Positions 16,130 to 30,795 of a stretch of DNA of 41,645 nt are shown in pieces. The number at the start of each line of letters is the position of its first letter. The first letter of the stretch is position 1. This stretch comes from Elusimicrobiota bacterium. Lineage in GTDB: Bacteria; Elusimicrobiota; Elusimicrobia; UBA1565; UBA9628. The DNA is taken from positions 1 through 41,645 of the forward strand of contig JACQPG010000082.1 in NCBI GenBank assembly GCA_016207665.1, given 5' to 3'. Under the pieces are notes generated by a model. That model was not told the origin of the DNA and did not search any database. It worked only from the letters and a program-made list of their open reading frames with translations. Position numbers and translations under genes: made by a program.

Positions 16130-17506
16130 CTATTTCCTCACTGGAAGCTTCTTGGTCTCGAAATGCCTCGCGTTGACTTCCTTGAAAACCTTCTCGATGG
16201 TGTCTATGGCCATGTTCATCTCGGCCTGGCTGATGGTCAGCGGAGGCTCGATGCGCAGGGTCTTGGCCGAGAACAGCGTCCCGGCCACCAGGACGCCGCG
16301 GTCGAAAAGCCCCTTGGCGACCTCGTAGCCGATGGCATCGGTCGGAAATTCCATGCCGATCATCAGCCCTTTGCCGCGCACGTCGATGCAAAGCTTGGGG
16401 AAGCGCCGGCGCAGGCCCTTGAGCTTGGCCATCAGGTCATTGCCCATCTTGTCGGCGCGCTCGGGAAGCTTCTCATCAAGCAGCACATGGATATTGGCTA
16501 TGGCCGCGACGCAGGCCAAGGGGTTTCCCCCGAAAGTGGTCGAGTGCAGCCAGGGCTCGGGGAAAAGCTGCTCCCAAATGGTCTTGTTGGAGACGAAGGC
16601 TCCGATGGGCATCACCCCGCCGCCCAAGGCCTTTCCCAGGCACATGATGTCCGGCACCACGTTCCAATGGTCCACGCAGAACATGCGTCCGGTCCTTCCC
16701 ATGCCGGTCTGCACCTCGTCGACGATGAGCAGGGCCCCGTAGCGGTCGCAGAGATCGCGCACGCGCGGCAGATAATCGTCGGGAGGGACATTGATGCCGC
16801 CCTCGCCTTGTATCGGCTCGAGTATCACGCCCGCGATGTCGTTGCCCACCTCGTCGGCCGAGCGCAATGCCGATTCGATCACGTCCGCGTCGCCATAGGG
16901 CACGTGATAGCAGTCAGGCAAAATAGGCAGGAAAGGCTGGCGGAACTTGGCCTTGGCCGTGGCCGACAGGGCGCCGAGAGTCTTGCCGTGGAAGCCGGCG
17001 GTGGCCGCCACGAAGGACTTGCGGCCGGTGTGCAGCATGGCCAATTTCATGGCGCCTTCGATGGCCTCGGCGCCGGAATTGCCGAAAAAGCTGTATTGCA
17101 GGTCTCCCGGAGTGATGTCGTGGATCAATTTCGCCAGAATGGCGCGGAAGGGCTCGAGCAGCTCCTGGGAATGGAGGGCCTGCCTCTTGAGCTGGTTCTG
17201 CACGGCTTCGACTACCTTGGGATGGCGGTGGCCTACGTTGAAAATACCATAGCCGCCCAGCAGATCCAGGTATTTCTTGCCCTTGAGATCGGTGAAGGTG
17301 TTGGCCGTATCCGCCCATTCGATGGAGACATAGTCCGTGGAGACGGATTTGCGATATTCCAATATGCCGGGGTTGACATGATTGGAATAATAATTGGCGG
17401 TCGCCTCGCTGATATAGTTCTTATCGTCTTCAGAGAGCTCGTTTTTACCTATTAATTGAAGGGTCTTTTCGGTTTCTTTGAGAATGTCCTGGGCCGGGAT
17501 CTTCAT
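16130..17506 (-). CDS. patA: Putrescine aminotransferase, PatA type
   Basis: A 458-residue class III PLP-dependent aminotransferase. The N-terminal block (NHVNPGILEYRKS), the FNVGHRHPKVVEAVQNQL segment, LHSQELLEPFRA and the end VAGTLFSAKTLRIEPPL closely follow Escherichia coli PatA (YgjG). The PLP-binding Asp is Asp263 (VDEVQTGMGRTG) and the Schiff-base Lys is Lys292 (CLGKALGGGVMPIGA). The enzyme transfers the terminal amine of putrescine, and in E. coli also cadaverine, to 2-oxoglutarate, giving an aminoaldehyde for the following dehydrogenase. The ATG overlaps the stop of the lysine dehydrogenase-like gene by four bases, so the two are translationally coupled. Substrate assignment is by similarity to a characterised enzyme recalled from memory. 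Confidence 0.9.
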   Translation of the reverse strand: MKIPAQDILKETEKTLQLIGKNELSEDDKNYISEATANYYSNHVNPGILEYRKSVSTDYVSIEWADTANTFTDLKGKKYLDLLGGYGIFNVGHRHPKVVEAVQNQLKRQALHSQELLEPFRAILAKLIHDITPGDLQYSFFGNSGAEAIEGAMKLAMLHTGRKSFVAATAGFHGKTLGALSATAKAKFRQPFLPILPDCYHVPYGDADVIESALRSADEVGNDIAGVILEPIQGEGGINVPPDDYLPRVRDLCDRYGALLIVDEVQTGMGRTGRMFCVDHWNVVPDIMCLGKALGGGVMPIGAFVSNKTIWEQLFPEPWLHSTTFGGNPLACVAAIANIHVLLDEKLPERADKMGNDLMAKLKGLRRRFPKLCIDVRGKGLMIGMEFPTDAIGYEVAKGLFDRGVLVAGTLFSAKTLRIEPPLTISQAEMNMAIDTIEKVFKEVNARHFETKKLPVRK

Positions 17507-18678
17507 GACTTTCTCCTCCCAGAGTGTTCGGCCAAGACGAAGCCTTGGCGCTCGAGTTCCGCGATAAAAGGCCGCGCGTCCAACGCGCTTTCCGGACCCA
17601 TCACGCCGGCGCGGGCTCTCGCCCGTCCGGTCATGAGTGCGAGGGCTGCCACGGCCACGGGAATCCCGACCCCGGCCGTGCCGGCCGACAGGCGTCCCGC
17701 GGGCCTCAACTGGCAGTCCAGGCTGGCTGTTACGGCCTGTTTCCCCTCCCGGCCCGAGGCCTTCACCCGGAGTATCTCAAAATCCCTCGGCCTCTGCCAA
17801 GGGGTTTCCTGGAGGCTTTTGCGAGCCAGGGAGGTGAGCAGGTTCCTGGGCGAGATCTCCGCGCCATTGACCTGTATCGGACTCTCGGCGGCCAGGCCGA
17901 GGCTGACCAGCCATGAAAGCTGGCGCTCCACCGGACCGGGATAGGCGATCTTGAAGCAGAGATTCTTGAGCCCCTTATCCCTCAAAAATCGCGGGAGAGT
18001 CGCCAACTCGGAATGGATGGCGGATACGAGTCTTGCCCGTCCGATAGGAGGGTCGAACTCGTCCTCCTCCGCTTCGGATCTCGCCGGGATGAAACGTATC
18101 GCTCCATTCCTATACACCGGCACCGGGCTTTGGAATTCCTCGAGAAGAGTCCTGATCGAGAACGGCGGCATGAAGCGGGAGTCCGATAGATCCGGATCAT
18201 GGCTGGCGTCGAAAATGGAGACCGACTCCACCTTCTCGAGCTTGCCGGCCAGCCGCGCCGTCATCAAATTGGTGATACCCGGAGTCGAGCCGATCCCCAA
18301 TACGGCGAGTCGCTCGATGGCCTTGAAGCGCGTATCGAGCCGCAGCTGTCTCAAGGTCATGTGATAAAGGCCCCCCAAGTCCACGTAATGCGACTTCAAG
18401 GCCAAGGCCAATTCCATGGCCTTGAGATTGTGCTCGTACCAGGCGCAATTGATGACGCAGTCCGAGTCTTTAAGAACGCGGAGCGCCTGATCGATCCTGG
18501 TGAAATCCAGCCTCAGGGGCCTGATCTTCTTGGCGCCGGGGATGCGGGAAAGCAATTCCTTGGAGCGCGAGAGGTCCAGATCCACGCAAAAGACCTGGCT
18601 TACCTCAGTCCTGGCGCCCAAGTGAACGAGCACCGCCTCGGCCATCTGGCCAAATCCGCCCAGTACGGTCAATCTCAC
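17503..18678 (-). CDS. Saccharopine dehydrogenase-family protein, probably lysine 6-dehydrogenase-like
   Basis: A 391-residue oxidoreductase. It begins with a Rossmann fold (MRLTVLGGFGQMAEAV). The central YHMTLRQ...GIGSTPGITNLM segment and a C-terminal substrate domain follow. The VNGAEISPRNLLTSL block and the end pattern GVMGPESALDARPFIAELERQGF line up with lysine 6-dehydrogenase of Geobacillus better than with true saccharopine dehydrogenase. It would oxidise the epsilon-amine of lysine to an aldehyde that cyclises to piperideine-6-carboxylate. Both ends overlap neighbours by ATGA, placing it firmly in a four-gene operon with the GABA-type and putrescine aminotransferases. The family is clear. 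Lysine specificity is inference; carboxynorspermidine or other amino-acid dehydrogenation is an alternative. Confidence 0.75.
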   Translation of the reverse strand: MRLTVLGGFGQMAEAVLVHLGARTEVSQVFCVDLDLSRSKELLSRIPGAKKIRPLRLDFTRIDQALRVLKDSDCVINCAWYEHNLKAMELALALKSHYVDLGGLYHMTLRQLRLDTRFKAIERLAVLGIGSTPGITNLMTARLAGKLEKVESVSIFDASHDPDLSDSRFMPPFSIRTLLEEFQSPVPVYRNGAIRFIPARSEAEEDEFDPPIGRARLVSAIHSELATLPRFLRDKGLKNLCFKIAYPGPVERQLSWLVSLGLAAESPIQVNGAEISPRNLLTSLARKSLQETPWQRPRDFEILRVKASGREGKQAVTASLDCQLRPAGRLSAGTAGVGIPVAVAALALMTGRARARAGVMGPESALDARPFIAELERQGFVLAEHSGRRKS

Positions 18679-20000
18679 GATTTGAGAGCGGATTCGAGCA
18701 CGTCGAGCCCTCGCTCGAGCTCCGAGTCCGGTATGGTGAGGGGCATCAAGGTCCTGATCACGTTGTCGAAACCGCCGGCTTTGATCACGATCAGGCCGCC
18801 CTCCTCGCAGCGCGAGATGATCTCCTTGACCCTGGCTGGAGGCAGCGGAGCCTTGCTCCTCTTGTCGCTGACCAGCTCTATGGCGCGCATGGCCCCCAAA
18901 CCCCGGGAGTCCCCCACCAAAGGCGAGCGGTCCCGCCAGGAGTCGAAACGCTGCGCCACGACGCGGCCGATGCGCCGGCCGGCGTCGACCAGCCTTTCAT
19001 CCTTGAATATCTCGAGCACGGCCAGGGCAGCGGCGCAGGACATGGGATTGCCGCCATAGGTGCCGCCGATGGACCCGACGGGCGCCGAATCCAATATTTC
19101 GGCGCGGCCGATCACCCCGGAGAGCGGCATGCCGGCTCCCAGCGACTTGCCCACCACCATGAGATCAGGAACCACCTCGTCATGCTCGATGGCGAACATC
19201 CGTCCCGTCCGGCCGAAGCCGGTCTGCACCTCGTCGATCACGAGCATCATGCCGTGCTGGTCGCAAAGCTTGCGCAGGCCCTTGAGGAAGCCGGGGGTGG
19301 GCACGATGAAGCCGCCCTCCCCTTGCACCGGCTCGGCGATGATCGCCGCCACGTCCTCCGGCGCGACATCGTTGCGGAAAAGGCGATCGAGCTCCTCCAG
19401 GCAGTACTCCGTCAAGTCCTCGGGCTTGATCCCGGAAGGCGGCCGGTACGGATAAGGATAGCGGGCGCGGTAGAACTCCGCGGGACTGGGCCCGAAATGC
19501 TGGCGCAGGGGTTTGTACTTGCCGTCCAAGGTGAGGCATACAAGGGTGCGTCCGTGGAAGGCGTTGTCGAAGCTGATCACGCCCTTGCGCCGGGTATGCG
19601 CCCGGCTGAACTTGATCGCGTTCTCGATCGCCTCCGAGCCGCTGTTGAACAGGATCGCCTTCTTCCTCCCCGGCCCGGGCATGAGCTCGACGAGTTTCCC
19701 GCAAAGCCGGATGTAATTCTCGTAGGCCGCGACGTGGAAGCTGGTATGCAGAAGCTTGCCCGCCTGCTCGCGCAGGGCCGATACCACCCTGGGATGGCAA
19801 TGCCCGACGTTCAAGGCGCCGATGCCTCCCGCGAAATCGATATAGCGCTTGCCGTCCGCGTCCCAGACCGAGGCGTTCTCGGCGCGCTCGATCACCACAT
19901 GGGTATAGGCCGCGCTGCCGGAGGACACCAGCTGTTCGCGTTCAGCCCAAAGGGAGCCGGAACGGCTTGATTTTGAGACGGGTTTTCTCTTCGTTAACAT
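18675..20000 (-). CDS. gabT: 4-aminobutyrate/5-aminovalerate aminotransferase, GabT type
   Basis: A 441-residue class III aminotransferase. I chose the ATG at 20000 because AGGGA precedes it at good spacing and the promoter lies at 20023-20031. GabT-like features are FAGGIGALNVGHCHP, FNSGSEAIENAIK, FHGRT and IIAEPVQGEGGF. The PLP Asp is near 256 (IDEVQTGFGRTG) and the Schiff-base lysine is Lys285 (VVGKSLGAGMPLSGV). It would convert GABA to succinate semialdehyde or 5-aminovalerate to glutarate semialdehyde, the step after the PatA-PatD pair at the other end of the operon. It is first in the operon and overlaps the lysine dehydrogenase-like gene by four bases. Confidence 0.87.
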   Translation of the reverse strand: MLTKRKPVSKSSRSGSLWAEREQLVSSGSAAYTHVVIERAENASVWDADGKRYIDFAGGIGALNVGHCHPRVVSALREQAGKLLHTSFHVAAYENYIRLCGKLVELMPGPGRKKAILFNSGSEAIENAIKFSRAHTRRKGVISFDNAFHGRTLVCLTLDGKYKPLRQHFGPSPAEFYRARYPYPYRPPSGIKPEDLTEYCLEELDRLFRNDVAPEDVAAIIAEPVQGEGGFIVPTPGFLKGLRKLCDQHGMMLVIDEVQTGFGRTGRMFAIEHDEVVPDLMVVGKSLGAGMPLSGVIGRAEILDSAPVGSIGGTYGGNPMSCAAALAVLEIFKDERLVDAGRRIGRVVAQRFDSWRDRSPLVGDSRGLGAMRAIELVSDKRSKAPLPPARVKEIISRCEEGGLIVIKAGGFDNVIRTLMPLTIPDSELERGLDVLESALKS

Positions 20001-20022
20001 AAGTTTTCCCTGAGCTCGGCGC

Positions 20023-20031
20023 AGTATATCA
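20023..20031 (-). promoter_or_regulatory. Extended -10 promoter candidate for the gabT-led operon
   Basis: The minus strand reads TGATATACT, an extended -10 element (TG-N-TATACT), with no recognisable -35. Transcription would begin near 20016, leaving a 16-base leader with AGGGA before the ATG at 20000. Confidence 0.45.
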
Positions 20032-20070
20032 GATTGCAATTGGGGCTAGGAAGGCTGGGACGGGCGACTC

Positions 20071-20595
20071 TTAGGGAAGCAGTTTGAAGCTGGAAGCAAC
20101 TTTCTCGAACTCAGGCCGGGCCTGGCGGACCGATTCCCCGACGCCGCTGAGGCTGAGCACGTAATAGTCGCGGCCGGCGTCGACGATGAGGAATGTTTCC
20201 TCGAGCGGGCCGGGCAACCATTCCCCGTGCTCGCCTCTCAGGCGCTCGGTCTCGATAAGTTCCAGGAGCAATGCCTTGCGCCCCCCCACCATGACGTGCT
20301 TGCGCTTCTTGAGCGATTTGACGGTCCCTATGGGCTCGAGCAGGCGCTCTACGAACTGCTCCTTCGTCGATGGAGCATCCTGGCCCACAGGCAGCCGCTC
20401 TAACGTGATCCTGGCGCCGGAAATCCTTTGCGGCGGCCTGATATCGATAAGTCCTAATCCATCGGAGCGCTTCCAATTCGAGGGATGCTCGATGGAATAC
20501 CGGCGTGCGGGATCGGAATAGCGGACATAATCCAGGCTTGAGCGCCCGGAGGAGGCGCCAAAGAGCAAGGCTATCGCGAACAGACTCGATCTCAT
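20071..20595 (-). CDS. Exported PsbP/DcrB-like protein of unknown role
   Basis: A 174-residue exported protein. Residues about 1-18 (MRSSLFAIALLFGASSGR) look like a signal peptide. The mature part begins with YVRYSDPARRYSIEHPSNWKR, the pattern of PsbP/DcrB-like folds that open with 'sieyPsgW'. It continues through ITLERLPVG, GRKALLLEL and DYYVLSLSGVGE to a terminal FEKVASSFKLLP, also typical of that fold. No catalytic residues are apparent. Its ATG overlaps the stop of the HEXXH protein gene by four bases, so the two are probably made together. Function is unknown; the fold call is by motif only. Confidence 0.7.
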   Translation of the reverse strand: MRSSLFAIALLFGASSGRSSLDYVRYSDPARRYSIEHPSNWKRSDGLGLIDIRPPQRISGARITLERLPVGQDAPSTKEQFVERLLEPIGTVKSLKKRKHVMVGGRKALLLELIETERLRGEHGEWLPGPLEETFLIVDAGRDYYVLSLSGVGESVRQARPEFEKVASSFKLLP

Positions 20596-22106
20596 GGCTT
20601 GAAAAAGTCCTCGTCCACCTGCAGGCTCAGATCATAGGGCTCGCTCTCGCCCTTGGTCCGGTTGAGCCATTCCAGATTGGCCCGCAGGCGACTGAGCCTC
20701 AGGGCCTTGATGGCGACCTCATGCTCGTAATGAGCCACGCGGGCCCGAGCCACGCGCAGGTCGTTGGAGGCCTTCTCCAGATCGTTTTGAAGACGACGGC
20801 TCTCCTTGCCTTCCAGGGCCTTGAGCAGATTCGTGTGCTTTTGCGAGGCCGAGGCCTCATCGGCTCGCGCCAACTCGAGCTGCCTTTTGCTCGATGCCAG
20901 CTGATGGATGGGGCCCGATTCCTGGATCTCGGGCTCGCGCAGCGTCTCCCGCAGCGAACGGCGGCCGTGAAACCAGCCGGAATCTTCCTTCACATATCGG
21001 TGGCCATTGGCGATCCGTTGTCCGAACTCCCGGGTGCCGATCCGATATTCTGAGGCCGCCTTTCTCTTGTCCTCCATAAAACGCCGTAAATCGTCATTAT
21101 TGCTGTTCTCCAACTGCTTGAGCTTTTCCGGCGCCTCTCGGGCCAGTATCTCATAGAGCAATACGCCCACCTTGAAGCCTCTCAGTTCCATGTCCAAGGT
21201 GCCGGGCCGGCCCACGTAGAAATCGTAGATATGCTCGATCTCATGCCCGAGCGTGGTCGGCGTCGCCGCGGGATCGAAGTCGAGAAGCTTCCGGTTGATG
21301 GACAATTCAGTGGCCTGATCATAAGGCCCTCTAATGACAAAGGCATTCGTGCCCCGGTTGTCGTCGCCGAAGTCCTTGACCGGCTTCTTGTCCAAGATGA
21401 ACTTGACCAGCGTGGGCATGATGTGGGAAAGATCGGCGCGCTCCTGGTCGCTGGCCCTCGAGACGAGTTGATAAAGGCTTGAGAAATGAGGGACAGTCCT
21501 CGCCGGGACGCCATAATTTTTGAGGAATTTCTCGAATTTTTCCCTGCTCTCCAGATGCTTGAGCACCAGGGGCGATTTGAGCTCTTGGAGAAAGCTGCTC
21601 TCAGGCTCGGGCTTGAGGAAGTCCTTGGCCGCGGGTTCATCGACCTCCGCGAGTTCCCTGCCCTTGTCCACCGCTCCATCGAAGAAGTCGTCGAGGGAAA
21701 CGCCGGCGAGCTTGCCGGCCATGGTTTTAATGGACTCCTTGGTCCTTTCCGCCGCATGTTGGACCTGCTTGGGATCCTTGGTGATATAAGCCTTGGACAA
21801 TTTGCGCAGGGAGTCCAAGACGGCGTCACCCCATACCGCGCGTATCAGTTCCTCGACATCCTTGCGCTCGATCAGTCCGGGATTGGCTATCACTTCCTCG
21901 AGTTTTCTCTTGAGGTGCTTCTCGGTCAGGGCGATGGCCTTGAGTTGATCCTCGGAGGACTTCTTTGCCCATGTCTCGGGAGTCTCCGCCTCCAAGGCCT
22001 GGGCCGCCAAATAGAGATGGTAGTTGAAAAAAGGCTTGTGGCCCGGATCATTGAAAGGAATGGCCGCGGCCGCGAGTGAGGCGAGCAGCCCTAAGAGAGC
22101 GGTCAT
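20592..22106 (-). CDS. Exported putative zinc metalloprotease (HEXXH)
   Basis: A 504-residue protein with a short signal peptide (about 1-15). The middle carries TTLGHEIEHIYDFYVG near residue 285, a complete HEXXH zinc motif. A candidate third ligand Glu lies about 19 residues after the first His (TLDMELRGFKVG). Before it is a helical region of about 200 residues and after it, from about 400, a charged coiled-coil-like tail (LASSKRQLELARADEASAS, LEKASNDLRVARARVAHYE). I do not recognise the family outside the motif. It sits second in a three-gene operon of exported proteins, coupled by ATGA to the PsbP-like gene and five bases behind the gene at 22112. A periplasmic or cell-surface protease is the likely role; substrate unknown. 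Confidence 0.65.
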   Translation of the reverse strand: MTALLGLLASLAAAAIPFNDPGHKPFFNYHLYLAAQALEAETPETWAKKSSEDQLKAIALTEKHLKRKLEEVIANPGLIERKDVEELIRAVWGDAVLDSLRKLSKAYITKDPKQVQHAAERTKESIKTMAGKLAGVSLDDFFDGAVDKGRELAEVDEPAAKDFLKPEPESSFLQELKSPLVLKHLESREKFEKFLKNYGVPARTVPHFSSLYQLVSRASDQERADLSHIMPTLVKFILDKKPVKDFGDDNRGTNAFVIRGPYDQATELSINRKLLDFDPAATPTTLGHEIEHIYDFYVGRPGTLDMELRGFKVGVLLYEILAREAPEKLKQLENSNNDDLRRFMEDKRKAASEYRIGTREFGQRIANGHRYVKEDSGWFHGRRSLRETLREPEIQESGPIHQLASSKRQLELARADEASASQKHTNLLKALEGKESRRLQNDLEKASNDLRVARARVAHYEHEVAIKALRLSRLRANLEWLNRTKGESEPYDLSLQVDEDFFKP

Positions 22107-22111
22107 GATGT

Positions 22112-22984
22112 CTAGGGCTTGAGACCTTCCAGGGCTTTCCGCTTGATCGCCGCGTCCTGAGCCGGGTCGTCATGCGCCAGTGGCGCGATCTGGCCGGGCA
22201 AAGCCGGTCGCAGCCAGGGATCGCTCTTGCCGGCGGGAACGGGCAGACGCTGCTCCTTTCCCTTGGCGCGCCGGCATTCCGCCTCTAGCGCCGGGTCGTC
22301 GCTGCAAGCCAAATAGTTCTGGCCGGCGACGGCCGGCGAGATGTCCGTCTTATCTCCCGAAAGGCCGGTCCTGCCCTCTTCGGCGCTGCGACCCGCCGCC
22401 TCCATGCGCTGCTTGCGATCCGCGGCTTTTTGTAGTCCGCGTCCGGAGATCTCGGCCAGTGCCGCGTTGATCGAGGCAGGTATCACGAAGTCCGAGCTCT
22501 TTGCCAGCCGGACCGCCTCGTCCAAATGACTCTTGTATTGCTCCGACCCTTCCTTGGCGAATTTAAGGGAAAGATCGAGCTTGTTCTTGGATCTATCGAG
22601 GTCGAGAGCCCTCTCGATGCGTACGCGGAGCCTGTCGCGTTCAGGCTCCTCCTTGAATGCGCCGAGCATAGCGGCCTTTTCGGGGAGAGAAAGGCCCATA
22701 AAGGCCAAGGAGTGGCTGGTAGGCATCCGGGCCTCGAGAGCGGTATGCAGCCTGGGGTTGATGGCTTGAATGCTGTTCAAGTTAAGAGGCTGATTACGGC
22801 CGATCAGTTCGCTAAAGAGTCTGTTGACCGCTCTTTCCTCGGATTGATAAGCGGTTTTAATCTCGCCGATGGTTTTCTTGACCTCGGCCTCGGGATCGTG
22901 GACGGGGGTGGCCATAGCCCCGTTGCCCGTGAGGGCTAGCATCGCGGCCAAGGCGAAGATGCGGCTCAATCGTGTCTTTTCCAT
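22112..22984 (-). CDS. Exported protein of unknown function
   Basis: A 290-residue protein I do not recognise. Residues about 1-25 form a signal peptide (LSRIFALAAMLALTGNGAMA). The mature part is largely helical and charged. It holds one Cys pair (YLACSDDPALEAECRR) near 227-238 that could form a disulfide. A proline-rich tail follows. It is the first gene of the operon leading to the HEXXH protein; only five bases separate them. Its upstream region contains nested inverted repeats and the second copy of the TAGGCC motif. A substrate, chaperone or inhibitor of the protease is possible but unsupported by sequence. Confidence 0.65.
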   Translation of the reverse strand: MEKTRLSRIFALAAMLALTGNGAMATPVHDPEAEVKKTIGEIKTAYQSEERAVNRLFSELIGRNQPLNLNSIQAINPRLHTALEARMPTSHSLAFMGLSLPEKAAMLGAFKEEPERDRLRVRIERALDLDRSKNKLDLSLKFAKEGSEQYKSHLDEAVRLAKSSDFVIPASINAALAEISGRGLQKAADRKQRMEAAGRSAEEGRTGLSGDKTDISPAVAGQNYLACSDDPALEAECRRAKGKEQRLPVPAGKSDPWLRPALPGQIAPLAHDDPAQDAAIKRKALEGLKP

Positions 22985-23020
22985 AATCGGAGTTTAACAG
23001 CGCCCGGGTATTTTTTCCAG

Positions 23021-23059
23021 GGGTCTAGAGACCTATTGTAAATATAGGCCAAAAGACCC
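23021..23059. repeat. Nested inverted repeats in the divergent promoter region
   Basis: Outer arms GGGTC (23021-23025) and GACCC (23055-23059) enclose inner arms CCTAT (23032-23036) and ATAGG (23044-23048). A competing hairpin, GGTCT with AGACC (23022-23033), uses some of the same bases. Copy 2 of the TAGGCC-AAAGACC motif occupies 23044-23060. The element lies between the divergent starts at 22984 and 23119, so it may be an operator for both directions. Confidence 0.4.
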
Positions 23060-23067
23060 AATTTTGC

Positions 23068-23096
23068 TTGACAGCTCGGAGGCCATGCGCTAGAAT
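23068..23096 (+). promoter_or_regulatory. Sigma-70-type promoter of the small cysteine-rich protein gene
   Basis: TTGACA at 23068-23073, a 17-base spacer and TAGAAT at 23091-23096. Transcription would start near 23103. The same TTGACA-N17-TAGAAT layout is found before preT. Confidence 0.8.
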
Positions 23097-23118
23097 CACC
23101 CCACTGAAAGGGGGTGCT

Positions 23119-23280
23119 ATGAAGAAAATCGCCTTGATCGCGGTCGTGATAGCCGCCGGAATCGCGGGTTTTGTCCGGATGGGACAATCTGAAGACTGCG
23201 GGCGCTGCTCCTTCGATTCGGATTGCCCCGGCGGGCAGGTATGCCGCGCGGGCTATTGCGAGACTCCGCAGGCGCCCTAA
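23119..23280 (+). CDS. Small exported cysteine-rich protein
   Basis: A 53-residue protein. The ATG at 23119 follows AAGGGGG at proper spacing and a near-consensus promoter, so it is very probably a real gene. The N-terminus (MKKIALIAVVIAAGIAGFV) is a signal peptide or membrane anchor. The rest has five cysteines in the pattern DCGRCSFDSDCPGGQVCRAGYC. The Asp-Cys-Pro-Gly-Gly-x-x-Cys-x-x-Gly-x-Cys part resembles small disulfide modules of Dickkopf-like N-terminal type found in secreted bacterial proteins. It is divergent from the operon of three exported proteins. Three bases after its stop a 40-bp palindrome begins. Function unknown. Confidence 0.75.
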   Translation: MKKIALIAVVIAAGIAGFVRMGQSEDCGRCSFDSDCPGGQVCRAGYCETPQAP

Positions 23281-23283
23281 AAG

Positions 23284-23323
23284 TTATCCACATTACTGCC
23301 AACGTTGGCAGTAATGTGGATAA
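23284..23323. repeat. Perfect 40-bp palindrome with two DnaA-box sequences
   Basis: The two 20-base arms are exact reverse complements with no loop. Each end is the strong DnaA-box consensus TTATCCACA (23284-23292, and inverted at 23315-23323). The core is TGCCAACGTTGGCA. It fills the gap between two convergent genes, three bases after one stop and six bases before the other. It is not followed by a T-run in either direction, so it is not an ordinary intrinsic terminator. Confidence 0.9.
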
Positions 23324-23329
23324 GTCGGG

Positions 23330-24529
23330 TCAGAATCGGGACAGGGCTCGGGCGATAAGGCCCAGCGCCTGCTTGATTTGCGCCTCGCTGATAATGAGAG
23401 GCGGGGCGAAGCGCACCGTCTTGCCGTGTGTGTCCTTGGCTAAGACCCCCTGACGCAGGAGAAGCTCGCAAAAAGGCCTGGCTTCCCGGTTGAAATCCAT
23501 CGCCAGGAGCAGGCCTCGGCCCCGAACTCCTTCTATGGCCGGATGCTTGAGACTCCCGAGGCCCTCCAGGAATATCCGTCCGAGCTTATCCGCCTTTTGG
23601 ACCAGCTTGCCTTTCAGCAGCACGTCGAGAGCGGCTTCTCCGATGGCGCAGGCCAAGGGATTTCCCCCGAAGGTGCTGCCATGGGTGCCGGGCTTGAACA
23701 GGCCGAGAACGTCGTCGCGTGAGAGCAGCGCGGATATCGGATAGAGCCCTCCCGACAAGGCCTTTCCCAAGATCAATAGATCGGGCTTGATGCCTTCATG
23801 ATCGAGGCCGAAGAGCCGGCCGGTGCGCCCGAGCCCCGTTTGTATCTCATCGGCGCAGAACAGCACGTTGCCTTCGGCGCAAATCGAGCGGGCCGCCCCG
23901 AGATAGCCCTCGGGCGGGATGCGCACTCCGGCCTCCCCCTGTATAGGCTCGACCAGGAAGCCGCAGGTATTGGGCCCTATGGCCCTTTGCAGGGCATCGG
24001 CCGAGCCATAGGGTATTTTCCGGAAGCCTGGAGTGGCCGGTCCAAAGCCGTCATAGGAGTCTGGATCCGAGGAGAACCCCACGATCGTGGTGGTCCGGCC
24101 GTGGAAATTGCCCTCGCAAACCAGTATCTCGGCCTGATTTTCCGGTATGCCCTTCTTGCGATAGCCCCATAGGCGCATGGCCTTGATGGCTGTTTCCACC
24201 GCCTCGGCGCCCGAGTTCATCAGCAGGGCCCGATCTTGGCCGGTCAACGCGCATAAACGGCCGAGAAAAGGGCCCAGCCGGTCGTTATAAAAAGCCCGGG
24301 AGGTGAGCGTCAATCGGGACATCTGGGCGCGAGCCGCGGCTATGATGGCGGGATGGTTATGCCCCTGATTGAGGGCTGAGTAGGCCGAAAGCATGTCGAA
24401 ATAGCGGCGGCCCTGCACATCCCAAGCGAACACGCCCTTGGCTCGCTTGAGCACCACGGGCAAGGGCGCGTAATTCTGGGCCCCGAAACGTCTCTCCAGG
24501 CCCATCAGTTTTTCAGCCGAGCTCTTCAA
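23330..24529 (-). CDS. rocD: Ornithine aminotransferase, RocD type
   Basis: A 399-residue class III aminotransferase. I chose the TTG at 24529: it is preceded by GGAG at seven bases and gives the family's usual N-terminus (helix, then RRFGAQNYAPLPVVL). The first ATG, eight codons later, has no ribosome-binding site. Diagnostic ornithine aminotransferase blocks are DMLSAYSALNQGHNHP, ADEIQTGLGRTG, LGKALSGGLYPISALL, HGSTFGGNPLACAI and the end LAKDTHGKTVRFAPPLIIS. It converts ornithine and 2-oxoglutarate to glutamate semialdehyde and glutamate, linking arginine/ornithine breakdown to proline and glutamate. It is divergent from the CaiB-like gene, with 15 bases between the starts. Confidence 0.9.
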   Translation of the reverse strand: MKSSAEKLMGLERRFGAQNYAPLPVVLKRAKGVFAWDVQGRRYFDMLSAYSALNQGHNHPAIIAAARAQMSRLTLTSRAFYNDRLGPFLGRLCALTGQDRALLMNSGAEAVETAIKAMRLWGYRKKGIPENQAEILVCEGNFHGRTTTIVGFSSDPDSYDGFGPATPGFRKIPYGSADALQRAIGPNTCGFLVEPIQGEAGVRIPPEGYLGAARSICAEGNVLFCADEIQTGLGRTGRLFGLDHEGIKPDLLILGKALSGGLYPISALLSRDDVLGLFKPGTHGSTFGGNPLACAIGEAALDVLLKGKLVQKADKLGRIFLEGLGSLKHPAIEGVRGRGLLLAMDFNREARPFCELLLRQGVLAKDTHGKTVRFAPPLIISEAQIKQALGLIARALSRF

Positions 24530-24538
24530 TGGTATACT
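24530..24538 (+). promoter_or_regulatory. Extended -10 element before the CaiB/BaiF-like gene
   Basis: The plus strand reads TGGTATACT, an extended -10 box ending six bases before the ATG at 24545. Transcription would start at or next to the start codon, and there is no ribosome-binding site, so the message may be leaderless. Confidence 0.4.
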
Positions 24539-24544
24539 CCAGCC

Positions 24545-25621
24545 ATGCCCGCGCTTCCAGGACGGCCGGTGGGAGGGATCGGTATTCCGTTCAAGGGCCT
24601 CTCCCGGTTGCGTGTGCTCGATTTTAGCAAATTGCTTCCGGGTCCCTACGCGACCCAGATCTTGGCGGACATGGGCTGCCGGGTGACGCGCGTGGAGCTG
24701 CCTTATTTCGGGGACCTGGCCCGTGAGCTGCCGCCCAAGATCGACGGCGTCGGGGCGACTTACTGGATGGTCAATCAGGGAAAGAAACAGCTCTGCTTCG
24801 ACTTCCGAAAGCCGCCCGGACAGCGCCGGCTCCAGGCCCTGATACGAAAGGCCGACGTGCTCGTCGAGGGCTTCCGGCCGGGACTCATGGATCGCATCGG
24901 CTTCGGCTTCGCGCAGGCCCGGCGCCTCAACCCGAAGCTGATCTACTGCTCGATTACGGGCTTCAATCCGGAAGGGGATTGGGGCCGCAAGGCGGGCCAT
25001 GACTTGAATTTCCTGGCCGTCAGCGGCTTTCTGGGCATGGGCGACTCCGAAGGCCGCATCGCCTTTCCTTCCGCCCAGGTCGGCGATCTCAACGCGAGCA
25101 TGGCCGCGGTGAGCGGGATATTGGCCGCCCTGCTCGAGCGGCAGGACACGGGCCGCGGCCGGCACGTCAGGATCTCGGCGACCGACGCCCTCCATTCCTG
25201 GCTGGCCATCGGCTTGGGCCATTTGCGGGCGACCGGGGAGGATCCAAGCCTGGGCCGGCATTGGTGGAATGGGGCGCAGCCGTTCTACCGGCTCTATGAA
25301 ACCCAGGATGGCCGCAAGATCGCGGTCGGCGCGGTGGAGAAGGGATTCGCGATCGCGCTCTTGGACGCGCTCGGTCGGGGCGAGCTGCGGGATCTGGCCG
25401 ATGATCCCATGGCCAACGCCGAACGTTTATCGGCCGAGCTCGGCAAGGTATTCGCCTCCGCGAGCTTCGCCGAGTGGGAGCGGCGCCTGGCTTCCAGGGA
25501 TTTCTGCGTGACTCCGGTTTACAACCTGTCGGAGGCCGTCGCCTTCCTCTCTAGAAGAAACCGAAACGCCGTCCGCGCCAAAGCCCCCAACCGTAAGCCA
25601 ATAGCCAAAGCCCGGGAATGA
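24545..25621 (+). CDS. CaiB/BaiF (class III) CoA-transferase family protein, racemase-like, short C-terminus
   Basis: A 358-residue protein. The N-terminal block (LRVLDFSKLLPGPYATQILADMGCRVTRVE), FDFRKPPG, DVLVEGFRPGLMDRIG and SITGFNPEGDW are standard for the family. The AGHDLNFLAVSG motif, with its His-Asp pair, is typical of the alpha-methylacyl-CoA racemase branch rather than formyl-CoA transferases. Family members continue about 60 residues past the CVTPVYNLSEA region. Here the protein switches after about residue 335 to a basic tail (RRNRNAVRAKAPNRKP) and ends, overlapping the convergent gene by 71 bases. It may be an active shortened form or a decaying gene. It shares no pathway with its neighbours that I can see. 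Confidence 0.8.
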   Translation: MPALPGRPVGGIGIPFKGLSRLRVLDFSKLLPGPYATQILADMGCRVTRVELPYFGDLARELPPKIDGVGATYWMVNQGKKQLCFDFRKPPGQRRLQALIRKADVLVEGFRPGLMDRIGFGFAQARRLNPKLIYCSITGFNPEGDWGRKAGHDLNFLAVSGFLGMGDSEGRIAFPSAQVGDLNASMAAVSGILAALLERQDTGRGRHVRISATDALHSWLAIGLGHLRATGEDPSLGRHWWNGAQPFYRLYETQDGRKIAVGAVEKGFAIALLDALGRGELRDLADDPMANAERLSAELGKVFASASFAEWERRLASRDFCVTPVYNLSEAVAFLSRRNRNAVRAKAPNRKPIAKARE

Positions 25622-25925
25622 GCCCAGCCTGGGGCCGGGACCGAGCCCAGGCGCCCGCCAGGGACAAGGCCAGCACGTAGCAGCCTATGGCCACCAGATG
25701 CTCGGAAAGCGCCCGATAGTCGATCTCTCCCCGGGAAAAACGCCAGGCCAGCAATCCCATCCCGCCCAGGATCAAGGCCAGGAAATGCGCGAAAAAGAAC
25801 CAGCTCCAGGCGGCGGGAGAAAGGCCCGTCGCAAGACCGGACAGGGCCAGGGCGCAGGCCAGGAGATTGAGGCCGCCTAGCATGAGTATGAGAGCGCCCA
25901 GCGCGGCGCTATCGCTCGAGCTCAA
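25551..25925 (-). CDS. Small four-helix membrane protein of unknown function
   Basis: A 124-residue hydrophobic protein with about four membrane segments (ALGALILMLGGLNLLACALAL, WSWFFFAHFLALILGGMGLLAW, LVAIGCYVLALSLAGAW, LIPGLWLLAYGWGLW). It ends in a basic tail. The start is TTG at 25925, overlapping the stop of the AGXT2-like aminotransferase gene by four bases, so it is probably the last gene of that operon. I do not recognise the family. Its 3' end overlaps the convergent CaiB-like gene by 71 bases. Confidence 0.6.
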   Translation of the reverse strand: MSSSDSAALGALILMLGGLNLLACALALSGLATGLSPAAWSWFFFAHFLALILGGMGLLAWRFSRGEIDYRALSEHLVAIGCYVLALSLAGAWARSRPQAGLIPGLWLLAYGWGLWRGRRFGFF

Positions 25926-27262
25926 AGTCCAGCGATCGACTCGGATAGGGCCGCGACCACGGCATCAGCGTCTTGGCGCGTGATGCAGAGCGGCGGCTTG
26001 ACGCGCAGCACGTTGCCCGCCATTCCTCCCTTGCCGATGAGCACGCCGCGTTCCTTGCAGGCGTCGAGTATCTTGAGCGCGAGCTCGGGGGCGGGCTCCT
26101 TGCTCTTCTTGTCCTTGACCAGCTCTAGGCCGATCATCAGGCCCTTGCCGCGCACCTCCCCGATGCAGCCCGAGCGCTCCGCCAGCTTGCCGAGGGCGCC
26201 CAATAAATAGCCTCCGACTTGATGGGCGTTCTCGGAGAGATTCTCGGAGTCGAACACGTCCAGCACGGCCGAGGCGGCGGCCATCTGGGCCGGGGACCCG
26301 CCGAAGGTGTTGTAATGGAGCTTGCCCTTGACCGCCGCCGCGATCTCGCGCGTGGTCACCACCGCGCCGATGGGATAGCCGTTGCCCAGGCCCTTGGCCA
26401 TGGTCACTATATCGGGCTTGACCCCCCACTGTTCTATGCCTAAGAATTTCCGGCCGGTGCGTCCCAAACCGGTCTGCACCTCGTCGGCGATGAACAATCC
26501 GCCATGGCGTTTGATCGCCTCATAGGCGCCCGGGAAGTACTCCGGTTCCGGAGTGATCACGCCGCCGACGCCGTTGATCGGCTCGGCATAAAATCCGGCG
26601 ATCTTGCCGCTCGTGGAGGCGTTGATCGCGTCCTCGAGCTCGCCCACGCACCATTGGGTGAATTGCCGTGCGTCCATGGAGTCGGGCTTGCGATAGACGT
26701 AATTGGCCGGGGCGAAAGAGACGCCGTAGACGTAGGGCATGGAGTGGCGCCAATTGGCCTGCCCGGTCAGCGCCATAGCCATCAACGTGCGGCCGTGATA
26801 GGAATGCCGCATGGCCACGAACTCGTGGCTGCCGGTGAAATTCTTGGCGATGAGCGCGGCCAGCTCGTTGGCCTCTGAGCCGGAATTGGTGAAGAAACAG
26901 GCTTCCAAGGCGGGATTGGCGGTTTTGAGCTTGGCGATCAGCCTTTCCGCATAACGCGGCAGCGAAGGATGGAGATAGAGCGCGGGGTTGTGGAGATACT
27001 CTCCGATCTGCTCGCTCAGCTTCCGGACGAAATGCGGATGGCTGTGCCCGATGGAAACGGTCGCGACCCCGGCGAAGGCGTCGAGATAACGCCGGCCGGT
27101 CTCGTCGAACACGTATTGCATGCGGCCCTTGACGATCTGCAAAGGCTTGGAATACATGGGCCCGGGCAAGGGCAGGATATAGCGCTCCCGCAGCTTGGCG
27201 GTCTCATCGGGGCTAGGCCAGGGACCGGTCGCGGCCGGCTCCATCAACTCGGTTTCTTTCAT
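25922..27262 (-). CDS. AGXT2-like class III aminotransferase (beta-alanine/3-aminoisobutyrate type)
   Basis: A 446-residue PLP enzyme. Its start (YILPLPGPMYSKPLQIVKGRMQYVFDETGRRYLD) and the blocks FAGVATVSIGHSHP, FFTNSGSEANELA, RHSYHGRT, GFYAEPINGVGG, ADEVQTGLGRTG and MAKGLGNGYPIGAVV follow mitochondrial AGXT2 and bacterial beta-alanine/3-aminoisobutyrate-pyruvate aminotransferases. The Schiff-base Lys lies in MAKGLGNG. In this context it would transaminate beta-alanine (from uracil) or 3-aminoisobutyrate (from thymine) to malonate or methylmalonate semialdehyde. It overlaps small membrane-protein genes on both sides by four bases and lies in the block just downstream of the pyrimidine-degradation operon. 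Confidence 0.88.
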   Translation of the reverse strand: MKETELMEPAATGPWPSPDETAKLRERYILPLPGPMYSKPLQIVKGRMQYVFDETGRRYLDAFAGVATVSIGHSHPHFVRKLSEQIGEYLHNPALYLHPSLPRYAERLIAKLKTANPALEACFFTNSGSEANELAALIAKNFTGSHEFVAMRHSYHGRTLMAMALTGQANWRHSMPYVYGVSFAPANYVYRKPDSMDARQFTQWCVGELEDAINASTSGKIAGFYAEPINGVGGVITPEPEYFPGAYEAIKRHGGLFIADEVQTGLGRTGRKFLGIEQWGVKPDIVTMAKGLGNGYPIGAVVTTREIAAAVKGKLHYNTFGGSPAQMAAASAVLDVFDSENLSENAHQVGGYLLGALGKLAERSGCIGEVRGKGLMIGLELVKDKKSKEPAPELALKILDACKERGVLIGKGGMAGNVLRVKPPLCITRQDADAVVAALSESIAGL

Positions 27263-27810
27263 GTCGCCTCCGTCTTTCTAAGAGAGAACCATATTCCCAA
27301 GCCCATGCCGGCTCCATTCATGAGCCCGTCGAGCAGCGCTACCGGCGGGGGCCAAAGGGATCGCATCGGCCAGGGCCATGCGGCCATCCCGCTCAGACGC
27401 AGTATCGCCGACAAGGCCAGATAAGCCGAAAAGGCGCCGGCGATCGAGCCGAGGCCGCTGCGCCAAAGCCTCGGCTTGGGCAAGAGGGCTCCTACGGCGA
27501 AAATGCTGGCCCAGATAGAGATGATATACGCTCCCGCGATCAGCTGATCCGGACCGAAGCGAACGGTCTCGAAGCGGCTGGCGATCCCCAAAGGGAGGGC
27601 GATACCGAAGAAGGGCAGGGCGAATCCGACCAAGCCCAGCCCCGCCCGGCGGGAGAGTCCGGTCGCGATGGCGCCATAGAGCAGCCCGGTCGACAGCGAC
27701 AATCCGAACACCGTGTCGTCGAACCCCAGTCCCGTGACCAGGACATGGGCCAGGGCGGCTCCCAAAAGGCCAGCGACCCCTCCTCCTACTCCCAACGAGA
27801 ACGCGCTCAA
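27259..27810 (-). CDS. Small polytopic membrane protein of unknown function
   Basis: A 183-residue protein with about six hydrophobic segments (for example VAGLLGAALAHVLVTGLG, GLVGFALPFFGIALPLGIA, LIAGAYIISIWASIFAVGALL, ALLDGLMNGAGMGLGIWF). The start is TTG at 27810, overlapping the stop of the aldehyde dehydrogenase gene by TTGA. Its own stop overlaps the aminotransferase ATG. I do not recognise a family. Being locked between two catabolic enzymes suggests a role in transport of the substrate or an intermediate, but no transporter motif is visible. Confidence 0.65.
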   Translation of the reverse strand: MSAFSLGVGGGVAGLLGAALAHVLVTGLGFDDTVFGLSLSTGLLYGAIATGLSRRAGLGLVGFALPFFGIALPLGIASRFETVRFGPDQLIAGAYIISIWASIFAVGALLPKPRLWRSGLGSIAGAFSAYLALSAILRLSGMAAWPWPMRSLWPPPVALLDGLMNGAGMGLGIWFSLRKTEAT

Positions 27811-29324
27811 TAGAGATTCGACTCCCGGCGCTGGCCCGTGTAATCCAGGAACACGGTCTTGAGCTCCGTGAAGAAATGGAGCCCCTCCTTGGCCATCTCC
27901 CGCTCGCCCACCCCGGAGCCCTTGATGCCTCCGAAGGGAACCTGCGCCTCGCCCCCGATGGTGGGGCTATTGACGTGCACCATGCCGGCCTCGATCTTAT
28001 CGACGAAGCGCATGGCCAGGGAGATGTCTTGGGTGTAGATCGCGGAGGTCAGGCCGAACTCCACTCCGTTGGCCAGCTCCACGGCCTGGCCGAAATCTCG
28101 GACCCGGGACACCGCAAGCACGGGGCCGAATACCTCCTCTTTGAAAAGGCGCATGGAGGGTTTGACCCCATCGAATATGGTCGGTTCGACGAAATAGCCG
28201 TGCTTGAGTTCTCCCTGCTCCAGGCGCCGCCCGCCATAGGCGAGCTTGGCCCCTTCCTTGCGCGCGATCTCGATATAATCGAGGTCGGTCTTGAGCTGGG
28301 ACTCGTCCACGGCCGGACCCATTCCTACCGCGGGATCGAGTCCGTCGCCGACCTTGATCTTGGCGATCTCCGAGATCAGTTTCGAAAGGAACCCGTCCGC
28401 GATCTTCTCATGGAGGATGAGTCGGCTGGTGGCCGTGCAGCGCTGGCCGGTCGAGCCGAAGGCGCCCCGAAGCACTCCCCCCATCGCCAGCTCCAGATCC
28501 GCGTCCTCCCAGATCACGGCGGGGTTCTTCCCCCCCATCTCGCAGGTCACCTTGATGCCGCGTTTGCCGCAAAGCGTGTGCACCTGCTTTCCTATCTCAT
28601 TGGAGCCGGTAAAAGAGACCGCCTTTATGCGCGGCTCGTCGACCAGCATGTCGCCCAGGGCCGAGCCCGAGCCTATGACCAGATTGAGAACCCCGGGCGG
28701 CAGCCCGGCCTGCTCGAAGATCTTGACCAGCTCGACCGCCATGGCGGGAACCAGCGAGGCGGGTTTGAACACCACCGCGTTGCCCGCCACGAGCGCCGGG
28801 CATATCTTCCATACCGGAATGGCCCAGGGAAAATTCCAGGGCGTGATCACCGAGACGACGCCCAGCGGTTGGCGGACGGTATAGAGCAGATTCTTGGGCA
28901 GCTCGGAGGGAGCGGTCTGTCCCATGAGCCGGAACCCCTCGCCCGAGAACCAGTCCATCAGGGCGATCCCCTTGTCCATCTCGCCCTTGGCCTCGGAGAG
29001 TATCTTCCCCTCCTCGCGCGTCATGAGGGCGGCGAGCTCGTCGCGCCGGGCTCTGGCGATCTCCGCGGCCTTGGCTAGGATGCGGCCCCTAGCCGGAGAT
29101 GAAACGGCCCGCCATTGGGGCCACGCCATTTGCGCGGCCTCTATGGCTGAGAGAGCGTCCTGGCGGCTGGCGGATCTGAAGCGCGCGATAATCTTTCGCG
29201 TGTCAGCCGGATTGGTGGAGACGATCTCTCGATCCCCGGAGCCATGCACCCATTTGCCGCCTATGTATTGCTTGAGCTCGGCAGCCTTGGGCTCGGCCGA
29301 TTTGCTCTTGGTCAAAGTGCTCAT
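27807..29324 (-). CDS. NAD(P)-dependent aldehyde dehydrogenase, probably for malonate semialdehyde
   Basis: A 505-residue aldehyde dehydrogenase. The ATG at 29324 follows GGGGGA at five bases. The catalytic Cys is in FGSTGQRCTATSRL, the Glu in CEMGGKNP and the cofactor loop is FTGSNEIGKQ. The style (WNFPWAIPVWKICPALVAGN, TIGGEAQVPFGGIKGSGVGERE) is that of the 2-oxoglutarate-semialdehyde/GucD-like branch, not the CoA-acylating methylmalonate-semialdehyde branch. It is followed with overlaps by a membrane protein and the AGXT2-like aminotransferase, whose product it would oxidise. A free-acid product such as malonate is therefore predicted, but the substrate is inference. Confidence 0.85.
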   Translation of the reverse strand: MSTLTKSKSAEPKAAELKQYIGGKWVHGSGDREIVSTNPADTRKIIARFRSASRQDALSAIEAAQMAWPQWRAVSSPARGRILAKAAEIARARRDELAALMTREEGKILSEAKGEMDKGIALMDWFSGEGFRLMGQTAPSELPKNLLYTVRQPLGVVSVITPWNFPWAIPVWKICPALVAGNAVVFKPASLVPAMAVELVKIFEQAGLPPGVLNLVIGSGSALGDMLVDEPRIKAVSFTGSNEIGKQVHTLCGKRGIKVTCEMGGKNPAVIWEDADLELAMGGVLRGAFGSTGQRCTATSRLILHEKIADGFLSKLISEIAKIKVGDGLDPAVGMGPAVDESQLKTDLDYIEIARKEGAKLAYGGRRLEQGELKHGYFVEPTIFDGVKPSMRLFKEEVFGPVLAVSRVRDFGQAVELANGVEFGLTSAIYTQDISLAMRFVDKIEAGMVHVNSPTIGGEAQVPFGGIKGSGVGEREMAKEGLHFFTELKTVFLDYTGQRRESNLY

Positions 29325-29354
29325 AAATCCCCCGAAATTCGACGTTAAAAGGCG

Positions 29355-29360
29355 ATTATA
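29355..29360 (-). promoter_or_regulatory. Candidate -10 box before the aldehyde dehydrogenase block
   Basis: A perfect TATAAT on the minus strand 31 bases before the ATG at 29324. The matching -35 position reads TATTCA, a poor box, so this promoter may need an activator, or the block may be read through from dihydropyrimidinase 70 bases upstream. Confidence 0.4.
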
Positions 29361-29394
29361 TTTAAACTCGGGCGTCCTGAATAGGGAGCCCGCG

Positions 29395-30795
29395 CTAATT
29401 GGGGCTTACGGGAGAGCGCCGCAGGAATCGGCCCTCGCTCGGCCGGCCGGTCAACCTATCGCCGTCCACCATCTGCTTGCCTCTCAGGAACACATGCCTG
29501 ATCGAACCGTCCACCGTGCGGCTCTCATAAGGGTTATAGTCGACGCGGGCGTGATGGGTCTTGGCCGAGATGGTGTGCTTCTTCTTCGGGTCGATGAGCA
29601 CGATGTCGGCATCGGCTCCCGGCCCGAGATGTCCCTTGCGGGGATAGAGCCCGAAGAGCTTGGCCGGCGCCGTGGCCGTGATCTCGACGAAGCGATTGGG
29701 CGATAATCGGCCCTTTTGCACCGCATCCCAGAGCAGGAGCATGCGCGTCTCGACGCCCGGGGCGCCGTTGGGTATCTTGGAAAAATCCTTCTTGCCCAGC
29801 TCCTTGCCCGGCTTGCCTCCGCCGCTTTTCATGCAGAAGGAGCAATGGTCGGTCGACACCACCTGCAGCCAATTCTGGGCCAGCCCTTTCCAAAGCCTTT
29901 CCTCGTTGCCCTTGGGCCGCAAAGGCGGCGACATCACGAATTTGGCGCCTTCAAAGCCCGGCCGTTCATAGTCCTCGTAGGATAGATACAGGTATTGAGG
30001 GCAGGTCTCCGCGAAGACTGGCAGGGCCCGTTCGCGGGCCCTGCGCACCTCGTCCATGGCGTCGCCCGCGGAGAGATGGACGAAATAGATGGGCACCCCC
30101 GCGATCTCGGCCAGGGCTATGGCCCGGCGCGTGGCCTCGGCCTCCGCGGACATGGGCCTGGTGAGGGCGTGATATTTGGGCTCGATCCGGCCCTCGGCGA
30201 GGGCCTTCTTGACCAGCACGTCGATCACTCCGCCGTTCTCCGCGTGCATGCAGACCATGCCCCCGTTTTCCTTGGTTCGCGTCAGAGCCCGGAATATGGT
30301 CGCGTCGTCCGACATGAATATGCCGGGATAGGCCATGAACAGCTTGAAGGTGGAAACCCCTTGGTCGACGATCCTGTCCATCTCCTTCAAGCCTTTCTCG
30401 GGGAGGTCCACCACGATCATGTGAAAGGCGTAATCGACCGCGGTCTTGCCTTCGGCCTTCTCATGCCAGGTGTCGAGCGCCTCTTGAAGGGGCTTGCCCC
30501 GCTTCTGTATGGCGAAATCGATCACGGTGGTGGTGCCCCCGAAGATGGCGGCCGCCGATCCGGAAGTGAAATCGTCGGCGGTGGTCGCGCCCATGAACGG
30601 CATGTCGAAATGCGTGTGCACATCGATGCCGCCGGGCACGGCCACCAAGCCGCGCCCGTTCACGGTCTTGACGTCGTCGGCGGAATGGATATGTCCCACG
30701 GCCGCGATCCGGCCCTTTTCGACCGCGATGTCCGCGACGAAGGTGTCGGAGGCCGTGACGATCGTGGATCCCCGGATGATCAAATCGTAACCCAT
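29395..30795 (-). CDS. hydA: Dihydropyrimidinase/D-hydantoinase
   Basis: A 466-residue cyclic amidohydrolase. The ATG at 30795 overlaps the transporter stop (TAATG) and is preceded by GGAGAAG; the ten codons upstream are not needed. Metal ligands are visible: His-x-His in GIDVHTHFD, the carboxylated Lys in STFKLFMAYPG, later His in HAEN and HLSAGDA, and Asp in STDHCSF. It hydrolyses dihydrouracil or dihydrothymine to N-carbamoyl-beta-alanine or its methyl analogue in the cytoplasm, the second step of the reductive pathway. The length is at the lower end of the family's usual range of about 460-500. It is the last gene of the preT-led operon. Confidence 0.93.
   Translation of the reverse strand: MGYDLIIRGSTIVTASDTFVADIAVEKGRIAAVGHIHSADDVKTVNGRGLVAVPGGIDVHTHFDMPFMGATTADDFTSGSAAAIFGGTTTVIDFAIQKRGKPLQEALDTWHEKAEGKTAVDYAFHMIVVDLPEKGLKEMDRIVDQGVSTFKLFMAYPGIFMSDDATIFRALTRTKENGGMVCMHAENGGVIDVLVKKALAEGRIEPKYHALTRPMSAEAEATRRAIALAEIAGVPIYFVHLSAGDAMDEVRRARERALPVFAETCPQYLYLSYEDYERPGFEGAKFVMSPPLRPKGNEERLWKGLAQNWLQVVSTDHCSFCMKSGGGKPGKELGKKDFSKIPNGAPGVETRMLLLWDAVQKGRLSPNRFVEITATAPAKLFGLYPRKGHLGPGADADIVLIDPKKKHTISAKTHHARVDYNPYESRTVDGSIRHVFLRGKQMVDGDRLTGRPSEGRFLRRSPVSPN

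Follow-up and report, generated by a model that had tools for sequence, protein, structure and literature searches.

The DNA analysed here (the window) is a stretch of 41,645 nucleotides that forms the entire contig G000:C55 of a metagenome assembly (G000; 2.78 Mb, 161 contigs). Positions 23284-23323 form a perfect 40-bp palindrome, TTATCCACATTACTGCCAAC followed by GTTGGCAGTAATGTGGATAA, which is the strongest inverted repeat of the window; about 4e-8 perfect palindromes with 20-bp arms are expected per window by chance (4^-20 x 41,645). The box TTATCCACA was found in the window at the two ends of the palindrome only (0.09 expected). The flanking genes are convergent (Table 1), and the stop of the minus-strand aminotransferase ORF at 23330 is 6 bp from the palindrome. 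Since the two stop codons are only 49 bp apart, the palindrome occupies most of the gap between them. An earlier note on this DNA had described the perfect palindrome, its two box ends and its convergent setting correctly. It had also considered an assembly artefact, which the palindrome is not, because its relatives are present in independent assemblies, including the complete one-contig genome G230 (3,802,950 bp).

When folded as RNA, the window copy gave a hairpin of -33.7 kcal/mol (z -8.3). No T-run follows this hairpin: the window copy continues with GTCGGGTCAG, and the opposite strand has only CTTTTAGGG. An Rfam search of the window returned no matches, and the window contains no HNH gene.

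Four class-III-aminotransferase-like ORFs (16130-17506, 18675-20039, 23330-25261, and 25922-27262) are clustered in the window within 16130-30825, together with an aldehyde-dehydrogenase-like gene and a dihydropyrimidinase-like gene (29395-30825). These genes probably constitute a cluster for amino-acid/amine breakdown.

Table 1. Location of the window palindrome, the genes beside it and its near copies in G000
Feature	Location	Strand	Description
Dispersed 40-bp perfect palindrome	23284..23323	.	Ends TTATCCACA, inner stem TTACTGCCAAC
53-codon ORF (MKKIALIAVV...CRAGYCETPQAP)	23119..23280	+	Stop TAA 23278-23280, 3 bp before the palindrome
Ornithine/acetylornithine aminotransferase ORF	23330..25261	-	TIGR01885 over the C-terminal ~390 residues
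G000 copy	C71:1238-1277		Perfect 40-bp palindrome, one compensated base-pair difference; just upstream of HNH endonuclease gene
G000 copy	C105:13167-13211		One arm with 5-bp duplication
G000 copy	C19:3706-3742		Diverged
G000 copy	C92		Perfect 42-bp TTATCCACC-type palindrome; end type shared, stem different

Copies in the same genome and in relatives

The window palindrome represents a repeat dispersed in uncultured Elusimicrobiota genomes. The exact 40-mer occurs once in its own genome, its arm recurs there, and at least four near copies are present. The pattern TTATCCNCA-N8-38-TGNGGATAA was matched in 8 of 57 related genomes; its backward control gave no matches. The genome G002 contains 26 exact-pattern copies, and a covariance model gave 142 strand-matches in it, corresponding to ~70 places. 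This model was run on 14 genomes that had partly been picked for carrying palindromes, so the split of the search results (10/10 versus 0/4) is not independent evidence. A class-wide pattern search yielded single sites in other families, the interior of which is not palindromic; they are most likely oriC boxes. Between genomes, the ends TTATCC(A/C)CA are constant, and the inner stem is replaced yet self-complementary. The stems of the G002 copies had 94.4% of cells paired, as against 34-56% with slid partners, and five pairs were altered on both sides, a number reached in 6 of 500 shuffles.

The several intergenic copies differ from the single origin-linked site that the earlier note had named as one outcome of a copy count. 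Its suggestion of a repeat or miniature element is supported and refined. IS ends were also tried as a candidate and rejected, as the half-sites at the ends of contigs C44 and C130 adjoin rho and a RidA-like gene and no transposase was seen beside them. The first ~150 bases of these two G000 contigs are almost identical and include TTGTGGATAAGACACCC, perhaps representing a duplicated or strain-variant region.

The exact 40-mer was absent from the viral collection, where 66 stretches had the same ends and spacing and only one was palindromic inside; these stretches serve as a control. A similar palindrome, GTTATCCACAGAAATTCCACGTGGAAAATCTGTGGATAAC, was observed in frame within a ParB-like gene of a viral contig (L387:12414-12451; IMG/VR contig 3300010158_000667). 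A separate palindrome family with the ends GGTGYCAGGC...GCCTGRCACC and unrelated stems of 40-50 bp occurs in G030 (L274:6379-6443, L277:4217-4288, and L278:18536-18595).

The 26 exact-pattern copies of G002 were distributed as randomly chosen intergenic points would be, with 7 in convergent, 7 in divergent and 12 in tandem gaps, and 15 of them lay near a 3' end, with 52% expected by chance; genes were called here as the longest ORFs, and single positions may be off. Given this random-like placement, the repeat does not as a rule sit between convergent genes as it does in the window, and a role as terminator is unlikely.

Comparisons of G014 and G230 with their congeners showed lineage-specific gain of palindromes. 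The G014:C13 palindrome lies in a 200-bp gap, whereas these two genes are ~3-15 bp apart in most congeners; the copy at G230:C1:435611 lies in a gap of 306 bp, against 5-18 bp in congeners whose two genes align adjacent to each other. The copy at G230:C1:1052438 is in frame within a conserved membrane-protein gene. The loop that contains it has 47 residues, 14 codons of which are the palindrome, and the homologues of the congeners have 38-41 residues; the excess of 6-9 residues is thus smaller than the 14 codons. No site showed the palindrome by itself as a clean insertion, the extra DNA at the two gap sites exceeding the palindrome, and the flanks of the copies, read by eye, shared no direct repeats that would indicate target-site duplication. 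The lineage-specific copies and the in-frame copy in a conserved gene argue further against a terminator.

The HNH endonuclease gene beside the palindromes

Comparison of neighbouring genes across genomes revealed one recurrent neighbour. The protein it encodes, of a little-studied type, is 350-390 aa long; its C-terminus is an HNH domain, and its N-terminus matches DUF222 weakly. In four genera this gene is located directly 3' of the palindrome (G000:C71, G005:C311, G009:C101, and G044:C88). A profile search found the HNH family in 35 of the 57 genomes, all of them from three families of the order, and a scan of named genomes returned chiefly Elusimicrobia/Elusimicrobiota records, so that the group can be assigned to Elusimicrobiota.

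A collection-wide scan gave 80 HNH loci, and the 70 genes with an intact 5' end were counted. Of these genes, 25 had a palindrome (score >=10) in the 200 bp upstream, compared with ~1.1 expected from the surrounding DNA (17 hairpins in 244,928 bp); by this score, ~60% of the HNH genes lacked a strong palindrome upstream. No upstream palindrome accompanied the HNH homologues in Anaeromyxobacter and Eisenbacteria. At three loci (L184, L226, and G000:C134), matching palindromes were found on both flanks of the HNH gene. The sequence TTATCCNCA was present within 250 bp upstream of 7/70 HNH genes and in 0/775 background windows. Palindromes with TTATCC ends occurred in 8 of the 35 genomes with the HNH family and in none of the 22 without it, a comparison of 57 genomes that ignores their kinship.

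The palindromes of a genome also resemble the one beside its own HNH gene. When the dispersed copies were scored against six HNH-linked TTATCC palindromes, 26 of 31 copies over five genomes best matched the palindrome of their own genome (G002, 20/21; G000, 3/4; G005, G009 and G044, 1/2 each). In G002, a decayed palindrome lies 60 bp upstream of the HNH gene, and its stem AACTTCGCGGCGAAGTT is that of the dispersed copies. In 400 kb of G030 that were scanned de novo, we found dispersed palindromes with cores that recur upstream of HNH genes of the same genome or of relatives.

Within 160 bp upstream of 46/70 HNH genes (e.g. L182, L195, and L209) we found the motif GGAAC-N15-17-CGTA, which was absent from all 2298 background windows and which we take to resemble an ECF sigma promoter. 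The palindrome is mostly located just upstream of this motif.

The HNH domain (PF01844) scored above the cut-off at the C-terminus of most of the proteins. The DUF222 N-terminus gave E values of 4e-5 to 3e-3 in three proteins, just under the cut-off, and was absent in others. In the AlphaFold model of the G005 protein (mean pLDDT 83), residues 3-133 are predicted with high confidence to be helical, followed by a disordered linker, a small domain and the C-terminal HNH domain. A Foldseek search of the PDB with this model gave no matches at E <= 0.001; the matches obtained were colicin/pyocin HNH DNases and, weakly, Spo0J/ParB and Noc (E > 1 for the latter two). With E > 0.5 throughout, binding of the palindrome by the N-terminal part would be only a lead. 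A sequence search of the PDB gave a single chance-level match (E 0.063), and thus no close solved structure, and PADLOC returned no defence matches.

Readings of the palindromes

We account for the family, its HNH-gene link, the sequence matching within genomes and the presence or absence of copies between related species by a REP/RPE-like palindromic repeat that has a DUF222-like HNH nuclease as its partner in place of a RAYT transposase, a reading to which we assign a probability of roughly 0.6. The HNH protein would recognise the palindrome that belongs to it, in the form of duplex ends or of an extruded hairpin, and would cut DNA; through repair or strand transfer, new copies of the HNH unit, or of the palindrome by itself, would then arise in other, mainly intergenic places. 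The window copy may be a bare palindrome of this kind, non-autonomous and inserted between the stop codons of two convergent genes. The proximity and matching of gene and palindrome suggest that the HNH protein recognises, cuts and copies the repeat, and hence that the repeat is mobile. More tentatively, these elements may be selfish palindromic repeats of a class not previously recognised in bacteria. An HNH endonuclease, in which a DUF222-like domain recognises the palindrome, would spread them, and every nuclease lineage would co-evolve with the palindrome belonging to it.

Counting against mobility, the upstream palindrome could simply be the operator of the HNH gene. On this view, a dimer of the HNH protein, or of another regulator, would occupy the palindromes and control its own gene and, via the dispersed copies, others. 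The location directly upstream of the ECF-sigma-like motif and the weak fold likeness of the model to the palindrome binders Spo0J/ParB and Noc are consistent with this, but the G002 copies show no preference for divergent gaps and are near 3' ends about as often as by chance, the window copy has a 3' end on either side, a coding sequence contains one copy, and the perfect arms are longer than usual for an operator. We therefore consider an operator function unlikely.

Alternatively, the palindromes might be RNA hairpins under selection as bidirectional terminators, an option of the earlier note, or as stabilisers of mRNA 3' ends. The strong fold of the window copy, its flanking convergent stop codons and the paired changes in the stem fit such a role, but a T-run is lacking, 3' ends are not enriched over chance, 7/26 copies are between divergent genes, and one copy is in frame inside an ORF. 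Moreover, a terminator has no need of the fixed ends TTATCC(A/C)CA, and the inner stem matches the HNH-linked palindrome of the same genome. This role is thus quite improbable, and the terminator option is left unsupported.

The earlier note had also suggested a DnaA-titrating or replication-linked site. The oriC of the organism is located on another contig, between the 3' end of dnaA and dnaN (G000:C77, ~50,100), and carries TTATCCACA boxes; the box type is therefore the correct one for this organism. Both boxes were exact in 34 of 43 copies, and the ~70 copies of G002 could titrate DnaA incidentally. However, 9/43 copies had at least one changed box, a lower-bound view of the variation since the count left only position 7 free, and in four of the 43 the identical change, to TTATCCCCA, was on both arms. 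Arm matching was kept in the copies with changed boxes, many HNH-linked palindromes have no box whatever, and the copies are spread over many contigs, with few copies in most genomes. Free variation of the boxes, which the note had held to speak against its box idea, was thus observed in part. The boxes are probably not the purpose of the palindrome, and a DnaA-binding or DnaA-titrating function is very unlikely.

Mobilisation as REPs by the Y1/RAYT transposases of these genomes is likewise highly improbable and largely contradicted: RAYT-like genes (PF01797) are present in 44/57 genomes, but no TTATCCNCA was found within ~1.5 kb of 20 RAYT regions, mostly from palindrome carriers, and G001, G008 and G013 have RAYTs yet no model matches. 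The integron attC core GTTRRRY/RYYYAAC, compared by eye, misfits the ends of the palindrome and was rejected.

Comparison with known repeats

REP-like palindromes are common in bacteria, and RAYT is the one mobilising partner that is well described. DnaA box clusters (oriC, datA-type) have exact TTATCCACA boxes in common with our palindromes, which unlike them are dispersed and multi-copy, have a palindromic spacer and HNH linkage, and do not always keep their boxes.

DUF222/HNH genes are known as the mycobacterial repeat REP13E12 (PMC10589994). The likeness consists in repeated genes that encode a DUF222-like and HNH protein, the DUF222 match being weak here. We know of no palindrome link for REP13E12. 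In the literature searched, with subscription papers mostly outside its scope, we found no link of HNH genes to dispersed palindromes, and DUF222/HNH appeared only as REP13E12.

The nearest analogue is the REP elements with RAYT transposases (GTAG REPs; PMC2817692, PMC3733652). Both are short dispersed palindromes, largely intergenic and varying within and between genomes, and in both, palindromes of the kind dispersed in a genome also flank its enzyme gene. Here, however, the partner is an HNH nuclease, and no Y1 transposase gene among the RAYT regions examined is flanked by the repeat; the stem has no GTAG at its end, the ends being AGTTATCC.../...GGATAACT, and the palindrome is perfect and near-gapless, with the fixed TTATCC(A/C)CA. 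Separately, a 54-bp near-perfect palindrome, CTCGAGCAGGGGACTTAGTCCGGCGCCAGCGCCGGACTAAGTCCCCTGCTCGAG, lies near a Y1-transposase-like gene in G009:C22 (L116:2406-2459), possibly forming a REP/RAYT unit.

CGTC REPs are reported to lack a dedicated transposase (PMC3733652), and RPEs (Rickettsia palindromic elements; ~150 bp) insert in frame in protein genes (PMC10969869). Our repeats resemble these in being palindromic without a RAYT. A possible parallel with RPEs is the in-frame position of one clear copy in G230, where the loop excess is smaller than the palindrome, and of one copy in the viral contig. They differ from RPEs in their length of ~40 bp and from CGTC REPs in the linked HNH partner, and their flanks have no CGTC (or TGTC/CCTC) terminal motif. 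The interest of a second nuclease family lies in the fact that these whole groups have been reported without a dedicated partner. Such a family, unrelated to RAYT and with a genome-specific palindrome, would make repeat spread directly testable, and likewise the function of the DUF222-HNH genes, dozens of natural enzyme-site pairs being available from the loci analysed. If our reading is true, an HNH nuclease might also be the missing partner of other REP families without RAYT.
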